Source: Pseudobutyrivibrio sp. YE44 (lineage in GTDB: Bacteria; Bacillota; Clostridia; Lachnospirales; Lachnospiraceae). Taken from it: a stretch of DNA of 64,000 bases. The stretch covers positions 1 to 64,000 of the forward strand of contig NZ_FMXT01000002.1 in the NCBI RefSeq assembly GCF_900104335.1, given 5' to 3'. Under the pieces are notes generated by a model, which worked only from the letters and a program-made list of their open reading frames with translations, ran no database searches and had not been told where the DNA came from. This document shows positions 60,239 through 62,998 of this stretch, one piece after another (the first letter of the stretch is position 1; each line of letters starts with the position of its first letter). Position numbers and translations under genes: made by a program.

Positions 60239-61579
60239 TTACTTGTTTGATCTTCTCCAGATGTTCATCTTCTCAGCCTCTGCAATGAGCTCATCACGGA
60301 AGTCAGGATGTGCAATAGAGATAATTGCCTCTGCACGCTCCCACATAGAAAGACCCTTGAGACAAACCTTACCGTACTCTGTAACAAGATAATGTGTGTT
60401 AGCACGTGTATCTGTTACGATAGAGCCTTCTGCAAGTGTTGGACGGATACGGCTCTTAACTGTACCATCCTTTGTTGTGAAGGTAGATGAAAGGCAAACA
60501 AAGCTCTTTCCACCATTTGAAAGGTAAGCACCAAGTACGAAGTCAAGCTGTCCGCCTGCACCTGAGATGTGCTTTGTTCCAGCCGACTCAGCATTAATCT
60601 GACCAAATAAATCTACATCAACTGCGTTGTTGATTGAGATAAAGTTATCAAGTGCAGAAATCTGACGAATGTCGTTTGTATAATCAACTGGTGCACTCAT
60701 AAGCTCTGGATTCTCATCCATGTAGTCGTACATCTTCTTTGTACCAGCACCGAAAGCATATGTCTGACGGAAACGGTCGATGTTCTTCTTAGCTCCTGTG
60801 ATCTTGCCAGCCTTAGCAATATCAACGAATGCATCAACGTACATCTCTGTATGAACACCAAGATCCTTAAGGTCTGACTCAGCGATCATAGCACCAACTG
60901 TGTTTGGCATACCACCGATACCAAGCTGGAGACATGCACCGTTTGGAATCTCCTCAACGATAAGCTTTGCAACGGCCTTATCAACATCTGTAGGAGCTCC
61001 ACCTGCACCCATCTCACCGATTGCTGGGTTCTCACCCTCAACAATAGCGTCAACCTTTGAAATATGAACGCCTTCCTCAAAGCCACCAAGACAACGAGGC
61101 ATGTTCTCATTAACCTCTACGATGATGTGCTTTGACTTCTCAACTGCAGCCATAAGATGTGATGCGTTAGGACCGAAGTTGAAATATCCATGATTGTCCA
61201 TTGGAGCAACCACAATCATAAGAACATCGTTTGGCTCAATATGCTCACGATAATATCTAGGAAGCTCAGAATATCTAATAGGAGCATAGAAAGAACAACC
61301 TCTAGCAATAAGCTTTCTCTCGATACCACCCATATGCCATGAGTTCCAGCAGAAATGCTCAGCTGCATCCTCACGATCAAAGATAGCTGGCTGCTTCATA
61401 AGAATACCACCACGAACCTTTACATCTCTAAGCTCGTCTGTGCGTGCAGCAAGTGCCTTATCAAGGGCGTCAGGTGTGCCTGTACACCAACCGTAATCAA
61501 CCCAATCTCCACTCTTTACTACCTTTACAGCCTCTGCTGCAGTAGTAAGCTTTTTCTTGTACTCAGCTTGAAAATCCAT
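60239..61579 (-). CDS. but: Butyryl-CoA:acetate CoA-transferase
   Basis: Last step of butyrate formation: butyryl-CoA plus acetate to butyrate plus acetyl-CoA. 446 residues. The N-terminus ([22 protein letters not shown]) and [26 protein letters not shown] are very like the Roseburia/Butyrivibrio enzyme. The catalytic Glu is probably E245 in LGVHTEM, aligned with the Glu of 4-hydroxybutyrate CoA-transferase; [13 protein letters not shown] is the CoA/oxyanion loop. Start codon ATG with GGAGGTTATT upstream. Monocistronic, codon use strongly biased like a highly expressed gene. Its upstream region is the left half of a giant palindrome. Confidence 0.93.
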
Positions 61580-61624
61580 AATAACCTCCGCTCGTTAAAA
61601 AATTATCAATTACACTCATTTTAT

Positions 61625-62363
61625 CACTATTCCTCTTTCGCTTCAATTACTTTATTCACTATTCACAATTACAGGGTATATATTATCCCCAGCCCCGCCT
61701 GCCCCCGCAGCCCAGCCTTCGGTCCCGGCCCCGCCACCTTTCTATATGGTGAACAAAGCCAAAGAATTTGTATTTTCTAAATGCTACACTGCGCTTTTTT
61801 TATAGTAGGCGTCTTTTATATTCATTGCACTTTGGGCGCTACAGTATGCATTGCACAGACACACAATACACTTAGAAATGCTCACACTCAAGGTATATAA
61901 CTATCAGTTGCTGGAATTTGGAGTGCGCTTAGTGGAATAAAAAATGTGTTTTGATATATATAGGCATGTGCCGCCACGGACGGCGGCACAAGTGCGATTT
62001 GCAACAGGACGTTGACATTGAGCACGGTGACTATATATACAAAACACATTTTTTTAATTCCACTTAGCAAATGGAGTATGGAAGCAACTGATAGTTATAT
62101 ACCTTGAGTGTGAGCATTATTTATGCTTATAAGTGTCTGTGCAATGCATACAGTAGCTTCAAAGTGCAACACCAAATAAAAGACACCTACTAAAAGCTCG
62201 TTTGTAGCATTAAGAAAATGCAAAATTCATTGTCAATCATGTTCACCATATAGAAAGGTGGCGGGGCCGGGACCGAAGGCTGGGCTGCGGGGGCAGGCAG
62301 GGCTGGGGACATAAATAGGCGTGGGTAACTGTGAATAGTGACATACATAAAGCGTAAATAGTG
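61625..62363. repeat. Giant imperfect palindrome (about 0.7 kb) filling a divergent intergenic region
   Basis: Left and right halves are inverted copies. Tips: CACTATTCACAATTAC (61657-61672) against GTAACTGTGAATAGTG (62325-62340), with CACTATT..CGCTT homology reaching 61625 and 62363. A GC-rich 69-nt arm at 61686-61754 matches 62241-62309 inverted at 68/69. A 35-nt block at 61878-61912 matches 62083-62117 inverted perfectly. Centre: TGTGCCGCC-ACGGAC-GGCGGCACA (61967-61990). Between blocks the halves are diverged but alignable. Outward -10-like boxes lie at both tips (TATAAT at 62365-62370; TAAAAT on the minus strand near 61620). No coding potential is credible. This is the whole content of the 61580-62406 gene-free stretch. 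Confidence 0.93.
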
Positions 62364-62406
62364 CTATAATAGGGGTAAGAAATTTCATCAGGAGGTATGT
62401 AAGACT

Positions 62407-62862
62407 ATGGCAAAACAAGAAATTGAGATTGCTGGTGCTAAGAGGCAAGTTGAGATTACCCCTTTTGAGCATCACACTAAATTTCATGAGACAGATCAAC
62501 AGGGAATCATTCATACGTCTAATTATGCTAATTGGATGGAGGATGCAAGAATGGATTTGATGGAACAGATGGGGCTTGGCTTCAAGCAGATGCTGGATAT
62601 GGAAATCAGTTCCCCTGTTATTTCACAGACTATTGAGCATCGCAGCGCTATTCGCTTCGACGAAACAGTTATTATAGATACAAAGCTTCTTTCCTACGAT
62701 GGTCATGAAATGGAGATTGCATATCGCATTTACGATAAGGCTACTGGAGAGGATCGTGCTGTGGCTAAGAGCCGCCACTGCTTCGTAAATAAAGCTGGTT
62801 CGCCAATTTCCATGAAACGTGCGTACCCAGAGCTAGACACAAAATTCTTCGAATTTAAATAA
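62407..62862 (+). CDS. Acyl-CoA thioesterase, hotdog fold (4HBT/YbgC type)
   Basis: 151 residues, one hotdog domain. FHETDQQGIIHTSNYANWMEDARMDLM carries the conserved Asp and the helix of the YbgC/FadM-like group; ISQTIEHRSAIRFDETVIIDTKL and MEIAYRIYDKATGEDRAVAKSRHCFVN are the strand regions. Hydrolyses acyl-CoA, substrate length unknown. AGGAGGT lies 10 bases before the ATG. It is divergent from the CoA-transferase gene, on the other side of the giant palindrome. Confidence 0.87.
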   Translation: MAKQEIEIAGAKRQVEITPFEHHTKFHETDQQGIIHTSNYANWMEDARMDLMEQMGLGFKQMLDMEISSPVISQTIEHRSAIRFDETVIIDTKLLSYDGHEMEIAYRIYDKATGEDRAVAKSRHCFVNKAGSPISMKRAYPELDTKFFEFK

Positions 62863-62863
62863 C

Positions 62864-62998
62864 ATGCAGTCTCCAAATTTTTCATGCTCCCGCAGGCCAC
62901 CTTCCATACTCAAGCTAGGCAACTTTCCGCTTCGCGGCTCCCTCCTAGCTTGGCATGGAGCCTTCCTGCTCGCGCTTGCCTAGATTATGCGACTGCAT
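62864..62998. repeat. Nested palindromic element after the thioesterase gene
   Basis: Stems from outside in: ATGCAGTC/GACTGCAT, GCAGG/CCTGC, TCCAT/ATGGA, CAAGCTAGG/CCTAGCTTG, CCGC/GCGG with a TTC tip. CTAGGCAA (62915-62922) can instead pair with TTGCCTAG (62976-62983), giving an exclusive alternative fold. No sequence likeness to the other two long hairpin elements, but the same build and the same position after a stop codon. Confidence 0.75.

Follow-up and report, generated by a model that had tools for sequence, protein, structure and literature searches.

A giant DNA hairpin between a but-like and a thioesterase-like gene of Pseudobutyrivibrio sp. YE44 belongs to a dispersed, mobile-looking family with locus-specific arms

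The window analysed here is the 64,000-nucleotide stretch of contig NZ_FMXT01000002.1 of Pseudobutyrivibrio sp. YE44, in which a palindrome of about 0.7 kb sits between a CoA-transferase-like gene ('but', 60239-61579, minus strand) and a thioesterase-like gene (62407-62862, plus strand); both gene names are taken over from an earlier sequence-only reading. That reading had described a giant palindrome made of blocks of differing conservation, and an inverted-repeat search bears it out, with blocks that match at 69/70, 36/36 and 16/17 positions in exact counts (Table 1), the perfect 36-nt block starting at 61877. The outer arm pair was reported at 70 nt and 99% and an inner pair (61838-61912/62083-62157) at 75 nt and 85%, with further pairs at 61767-61788/62203-62224, 61800-61819/62176-62195 and 61938-61966/62028-62056 in addition to the ends; the outer limits are those of the repeat and give the borders of the insertion approximately rather than to the single base. 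As RNA, the plus strand has a fold energy of -436.7 kcal/mol, the shuffle mean being -195 (z -36.9), and the minus strand reaches z -32.6 (20 shuffles each), and only one ORF of at least 60 aa, itself of 60 aa, lies wholly within the palindrome. Another hairpin is seen at 62864-62992, between the thioesterase gene and the next gene, with a fold z of -2.1 and 4/200 shuffles as good.

Table 1. Parts of the palindrome and the promoter-like sequences beside it (positions in the window)
Feature	Position	Strand	Basis
Whole inserted palindromic element	61656..62341	+ (tip sense strand)	Inverted repeats; no palindrome in 19/19 measurable named relatives
Left end, TCACTATTCACA-type inverted repeat	61656..61672	+	16/17 with right end
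Left linker, poorly paired, between end and GC-rich arm	61673..61685		Arm alignment
Left outer arm, C-rich, copy-unique	61686..61755	+	69/70 with right arm; no match elsewhere in the comparisons made
Left inner arm, common to other copies	61756..61937	+	Own-genome sequence comparison
TwoAYGGAY RNA (RF01731), exchangeable tip	61917..62079	+	73.8 bits, E 2.7e-12
GC-rich hairpin, ACGGAC loop (first AYGGAY)	61968..61989	+	Model alignment; GGA in 48/49 distinct tips
Second hairpin, GGA-containing loop	62002..62014	+	GGA in 17/49 distinct tips
Right inner arm, common to other copies	62057..62239	-	Own-genome sequence comparison
Right outer arm, copy-unique, G-rich on +	62240..62309	-	69/70 with left arm
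Right linker, poorly paired	62310..62324		Arm alignment
Right end, inverted repeat, CTGTGAATAGTGA on +	62325..62341	-	16/17 with left end
but promoter match, outside element	61618..61646	-	Promoter scan; similar sequence in relatives
Thioesterase TATAAT, outside element	62365..62370	+	By eye; TATAAT-like box in relatives

The same interval in related genomes identifies the palindrome as an insertion. Among 24 but-thioesterase loci (L090-L113), the 13 relatives read first have an interval of 113-211 bases without the giant palindrome and with the promoter-like sequence of both genes in place; of two added later, L092 has a different gene order and L097 is without the giant palindrome, and the other nine have no but gene in reach. 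A set of 23 named loci (L231-L253), whose genomes are partly the same as those of the 13, includes 19 in which but and thioesterase are divergent and in reach, 13 of them with short intervals (113-290 bases) and six with 1.6-2.6 kb. The best self-inverse score among these 19 is 22, compared to 298 in YE44; by this score no palindrome is present in the interval of any measurable named relative, and the YE44 hairpin is therefore an insertion. L097, the same locus as L248 of P. xylanivorans MZ8, holds in its interval what appears by eye to be a decayed end, with CTGTGAATAGTAAC, from a different small element.

The sequence-only reading had further proposed that the element may provide outward promoters, based on CACTATT motifs with -10-like boxes at its two edges (61625; 62357-62370), but both promoter sequences, a scanned match for but (TTGAAG-17-TAAAAT) and a thioesterase TATAAT noticed by eye and not scored by the scan, lie outside the repeat. 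As counterparts of the motifs, the boxes and the promoter sequences stand in the 13 palindrome-free relatives, they look like native divergent promoter sequence and this claim is not upheld. Two other YE44 loci were followed into 11 relatives each. At L018, G003 has a related element with other arms and the remaining relatives have mostly short terminator-like hairpins; at L020, where the left gene is the common anchor and most relatives have another gene on the right, G012 and G019 carry an element with other arms. G017, the best-matching relative in the L018 and L020 searches (84%), is empty at all three YE44 loci checked (but-thioesterase, L018 and L020).

The sequence-only reading had also found no fit to any IS, MITE or riboswitch, which no longer holds for the tip, a match to Rfam family TwoAYGGAY that covers the full model (positions 1-168) at a score well above the gathering threshold of 43. 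It is the only family reported in the palindrome by a scan that took in all Rfam families, a weaker match of the same clan being dropped. The interior (approximately 61754-62246) recurs at about 32 places in the 28-contig YE44 genome, several of them at contig ends (a hand count from match rows, with inverse self-matches merged and 40 of 50 candidates scored), and most of these matches fall within query positions 130-622, that is, without the outer arm. When YE44 loci were scanned with the TwoAYGGAY model, 11/18 scored above gathering, including the window copy (L001). The model was found in 29 of 61 genomes with filters that may lose weak matches: 27/29 in the genus (YE44 included), 2/8 in other genera of the family and 0/24 in other families of the order, with at least 38 copies in G021. 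The YE44 palindrome is one insertion of a dispersed, non-coding, mobile-looking family of giant hairpins in Pseudobutyrivibrio. An assembly artefact is unlikely as a general explanation because the family occurs across many independent genomes, including the 2-contig G012 and the 3-contig G003. A phage or plasmid origin was rejected, as a search at blastn sensitivity (E 1e-5) with the 493-base interior gave no match among 50,697 records of phages and 72,556 of plasmids.

Outside the genus, G036 from the same bacterial family has two places (G036:C47:139778-140356 and G036:C33:53805-54433) where a pair of TwoAYGGAY copies stands back to back, 240-300 bases apart. Near one YE44 copy the Rfam pan motif RF01749 is found (L014:1266-1361, minus strand, 40.5 bits), and in the G002 copy L072 a separate small repeat appears to be inserted within the left inner arm. 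By a crude ORF rule, 45 of 53 copies could be classed by gene context, 23 as tandem, 18 as convergent and 4, the window copy among them, as divergent; at 12/18 tandem sites with a known tip strand (hand count) the tip is antisense to the flanking genes. Transcription arriving from either side meets the C-rich strand first in many arms, which could favour Rho-type termination.

In the open-licence literature, TwoAYGGAY is known as an RNA: the available text of a 2010 listing gives it as a probable, non-cis-regulatory RNA of human gut, gamma-Proteobacteria and Clostridiales (PMC2864571), and that of a 2014 study proposes that it binds CsrA, based on matches to a CsrA-site model (PMC4333381). No account of palindromes or mobility for TwoAYGGAY was found in the portions of that literature available. 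A gene for CsrA is present in YE44 (G000:C12:92104, E 6.1e-26) and in 51/61 genomes, a wider spread than that of the hairpin element, and csrA in Roseburia is treated in the accessible part of PMC3720852. In the window tip, the first loop is an exact AYGGAY (ACGGAC), and the second (CAGGAC) keeps GGA only. Across 49 distinct tips, which are those fetched rather than a random sample, GGA is kept in the first loop of all but one, and the second loop of the 32 tips that have no GGA there reads CGATG or CGACG. Pairing in the tip is strong, with 34 G-U and 19 A-C in the consensus structure, 18 of the 34 G-U being the loop-closing pair of the first hairpin. When transcribed, the tip may act as a CsrA-binding RNA as previously proposed.

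The outer arms differ from the interior in being specific to each locus and yet self-complementary. In 23 YE44 copies that were oriented, with the left flank aligned to the reverse complement of the right, all 23 pair (L007 and L019 being truncated at contig ends) and the arms vary by copy; 8 of 31 places could not be aligned as pairs due to contig ends, runs of N or a missing arm. In a larger arm test of 47 copies from five genomes (17 from YE44, 7 G002, 10 G021, 5 G012 and 8 G019), left arms score at least 30 against their own right arms in 46/47, and L155, a partly deleted copy that lost most of one arm, scores 20. The test used 17 of the roughly 32 YE44 places; L072, L079, L162 and L164 were dropped as the boundary was not found, and L070, whose boundary was misplaced at a contig end, was dropped as well but is still included in the cross-copy figures. 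Left arms compared to the right arms of other copies have a median score of 9, a 99th percentile of 19.5 and a maximum of 65, the last probably due to insertions common to two sister genomes that are both in the set.

Similar interiors do not bring similar arms. For 59 within-genome pairs whose interiors are more than 0.9 identical, the arm-arm score has a median of 11 and a maximum of 35, and arms from different loci score close to shuffles, including those with interiors 90-96% alike; the highest scores (up to 35) belong to a YE44 subfamily with AT-rich, mutually similar arms (L013, L014, L017 and L022). A segment test that left out five AT-rich or related YE44 copies gave a between-locus similarity of 5.0-7.3 versus 4.5-6.9 when shuffled, while pairing with the own right arm scored 18-22 for both inner segments and 8-12 for the outermost one; the inner 25-50 nt are slightly above shuffles between loci (for example 6.3 vs 5.1 and 7.3 vs 6.2 in YE44). 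Five copies of G002 (L069-L073) have one identical 160-base core, and the left arm is present in four of them and different in each, L070 being cut by the contig end. The outer arm of the window copy has no other match in the YE44 genome at E 0.001, so that no source elsewhere in that genome was found for this copy, nor any among 311 sequences compared; four outer arms searched against the 311 matched only their own copy, plus the sister ortholog in the case of L133. The near-perfect GC-rich arm thus belongs to the window copy alone, and this is its most unusual feature.

If RNA pairing were selected, arm mismatches would be mostly G-U. Outer arms have 52 G-U, 68 A-C and 153 other mismatches with 105 gaps, and inner arms 128, 148, 621 and 729 respectively, where inner arms of related copies are not independent and selection on both strands at once stays compatible with the counts. 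As neither outer nor inner mismatches have an excess of G-U over A-C, arm pairing seems to be kept at the DNA level. The sequence-only reading was right that the blocks differ in conservation and took this to argue for function or recent origin; by itself, such conservation does not point to RNA function, since the mismatch types have no RNA-pairing bias. A sponge RNA kept by RNA selection was rejected on the same grounds.

The sister genomes G012 and G019 indicate what changes once an element is in place. Twelve loci were fetched from G012 and 14 from G019, and nine insertions are common to both by at least one flank, later tip-only matches standing outside this count. In five shared insertions, 31 of the 483 arm sites compared carry a substitution (34 gap positions not counted), and flanks are 89-98% identical in the nine aligned; the arms are therefore not fast-evolving. 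Tip exchange and interior inversion or replacement occur within shared insertions, in 4/9 of them: L143/L144 (read as L133/L135) and L168/L147 have had their tip wholly exchanged, the latter with a rearranged right side as well, the interior of L162/L161 is inverted (85.8% inverse match over 704 bases compared to about 70-76% in ordinary pairs), and that of L166/L163 is replaced by one 94% like L171. At L133 an inverted repeat of the right gene's 3' coding end follows the stop of the left gene, and L146/L157 have one co-change in an arm (both by eye). The L167 insertion is common to both sisters and half deleted in G012.

Three G019 insertions (A, B and L145) are absent from G012. At insertion A, which is bordered by GGGGG on both sides, G012 reads through, and on the left side in G019 some 20 bases of the right flank recur in inverted form, followed inward by a unique arm of roughly 45 bases that has 3 mismatches; a deletion in G012 would also fit. 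Partial support for a native flank comes from a stretch in G002 that is 93% similar to the right flank of insertion A, element-free and in another context. The right arm of insertion B is mostly lost, and at L145, G019 carries the element and lacks the short terminator-like hairpin found there in G012. Separately, 156 bases of G002 (L222, G002:C28:9201-9356) are 100% identical to G012, from which G002 is otherwise more diverged, which suggests recent transfer.

The combination of shared, exchangeable interiors with locus-specific arms and slowly changing, DNA-level pairing, together with the lack of a pre-existing target palindrome at three counterpart sites, favours arm synthesis tied to insertion. 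The leading reading, with a probability of roughly 0.5, is a mobile hairpin that completes its arms on insertion by foldback DNA synthesis, with arm-to-arm correction later on. The element would integrate as, or be repaired through, a DNA hairpin; an arm formed at the new site would serve as template for its partner through foldback (template-switch) synthesis, which may sometimes run into the host flank and turn flank DNA into an inverted duplication. The inverted flank copies at insertion A and L133 speak for this. After insertion, arm-to-arm correction would keep the arms alike, and recombination across the inner arms that copies have in common may swap their interiors; the GC-rich arm sequence itself could be made without a template or captured from another place. 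That inverted repeats can be maintained by template switching is an established idea in the available text of PMC6649704. A search limited to exact end motifs gave no transposase, reverse transcriptase or autonomous partner. Against foldback synthesis are this negative result, the inconsistent target duplications, the alternative of a G012 deletion at insertion A, the slight between-locus similarity of the innermost arm, the arm loss in L155 and the YE44 AT-rich subfamily with similar arms, and the poorly paired linker outside the arm does not follow from simple foldback copying.

Four other explanations were weighed, of which the best survivor, though rather improbable, is concerted evolution, in which old insertions have homogenised interiors and outer arms drifted per locus under arm-to-arm correction. 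Interiors do move, as the four rearranged shared insertions demonstrate, and the co-change in L146/L157 also speaks for this; however, sister arms change about as slowly as flanks and yet are near shuffled level between loci. Slow drift would also hardly yield unrelated arms in insertions that postdate the split from G017, provided its three empty sites are taken as not yet inserted rather than lost.

An ordinary MITE moved by a standard transposase through ACTATTCACAG ends is a still less probable account. The copies are dispersed and non-coding as expected for MITEs, and ACTATTCACAG, which also terminates some other copies of the family, recurs on copies of about 600 bp and on a separate 186-bp element; terminal inverted repeats are present on the window copy and some others, but were not seen on many, and CTATTCACA stands on at least one side in just 6/23 YE44 copies. 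A cut-and-paste copy would bring its arms along unchanged, which is not what the 59 pairs with similar interiors display, the AT-rich YE44 subfamily excepted. No constant target-site duplication is apparent in ends read by eye, where direct repeats of 8 bp at L088, 7/8 at L194 and 5 bp (GGGGG) at insertion A stand out and most other copies have none evident. In the YE44 genome, exact end motifs give only short pairs, of about 175-186 and 600-680 bp, and none longer than about 680 bp that could be an autonomous partner.

Smaller hairpins also occur in the genus. An element of about 186 bp with two hairpins and ends GTTACTATTCACAG/CTGTGAATAGTAAC, the latter being the end seen at L097, is present at L192-L195 and L198 (YE44 contigs C9, C14, C16, C19 and C20), its apical parts and central GATTCCAGT-type linker being alike and its basal stems different but still paired (by eye). 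Near gene ends at L123, L130, L134, L137, L141 and L142 are terminator-like hairpins of about 100 nt with a similar apex on locus-specific, paired base stems (by eye).

It is quite unlikely that the family is in the first place a functional RNA, a multi-copy CsrA-titrating RNA whose stems co-vary under RNA selection and which was dispersed as a useful regulator. The TwoAYGGAY match, the first-loop GGA, the strong tip pairing, csrA in YE44 and the published CsrA proposal in the available text of PMC4333381 speak for it, but the second loop keeps GGA in a minority of tips, the arms have no G-U bias, csrA is also found in many genomes without TwoAYGGAY, and with most tips antisense at tandem sites read-through would often not make the tip. 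As an added role, it is compatible with a mobile hairpin completed by foldback. Similarly improbable is insertion into the apex of pre-existing palindromes, such as long terminators or other hairpins, the unique arms being the old target, which is consistent with the many copies adjoining terminator-like sequence and with the separate 100-nt hairpin family in the genus but is contradicted at three sites, by the palindrome-free but-thioesterase interval of relatives, by the L145 counterpart, whose short hairpin has a stem other than the arm, and by the insertion A counterpart without a palindrome.

A further and tentative step, more doubtful than foldback completion itself, would be to regard the family as a new category of bacterial mobile DNA that carries a tip and inner arms and writes a unique GC-rich arm pair each time it inserts, one side through untemplated or captured synthesis and the other as a foldback copy, with a stretch of host flank mirrored too. 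If true, arm writing would leave every copy with a natural, self-proofed 'barcode', and if the arms are made at insertion, bacteria would hold a DNA-writing process that yields long, unique, self-complementary sequence; filled and empty sites exist in culturable rumen species. The family also demonstrates that a bacterial genus can retain 0.5-0.7-kb palindromes in high copy number. TwoAYGGAY, a family of RNA without a function since 2010, gains a genomic context in these bacteria as the tip of a spreading palindrome, and the CsrA hypothesis is therefore to be weighed against a mobile-DNA one.

The hairpin element seems undescribed in the open-licence literature on palindromes, MITEs, hairpin transposition, CsrA sponges, CsrA/FliW of Lachnospiraceae and double-hairpin elements. 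Compared to TwoAYGGAY as entered (RF01731), a 168-position RNA that the window tip matches in full above the gathering score, the sequence is here the exchangeable tip of a dispersed 0.5-0.7-kb DNA palindrome. CsrA-titrating RNAs of the CsrB/RsmZ type resemble the window tip in having GGA in hairpin loops, whereas most tips of the hairpin family keep one GGA loop of two. MITEs and REPINs are non-autonomous bacterial repeats which, like the hairpin family, are non-coding, intergenic, dispersed and palindromic, some with terminal inverted repeats; the hairpin family differs in its locus-specific arms and in that no constant target duplication was seen and no partner enzyme found. The double-hairpin elements of fungal mitochondria are mobile hairpins said to keep their structure while their stems vary, but are far smaller and mitochondrial. 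The palindromes of Nematomorpha mtDNA are, in the available text of PMC6649704, not mobile, not dispersed and without a common tip, but resemble the hairpin family in that long inverted repeats are kept alike at the DNA level, in their case through conversion or template switching.
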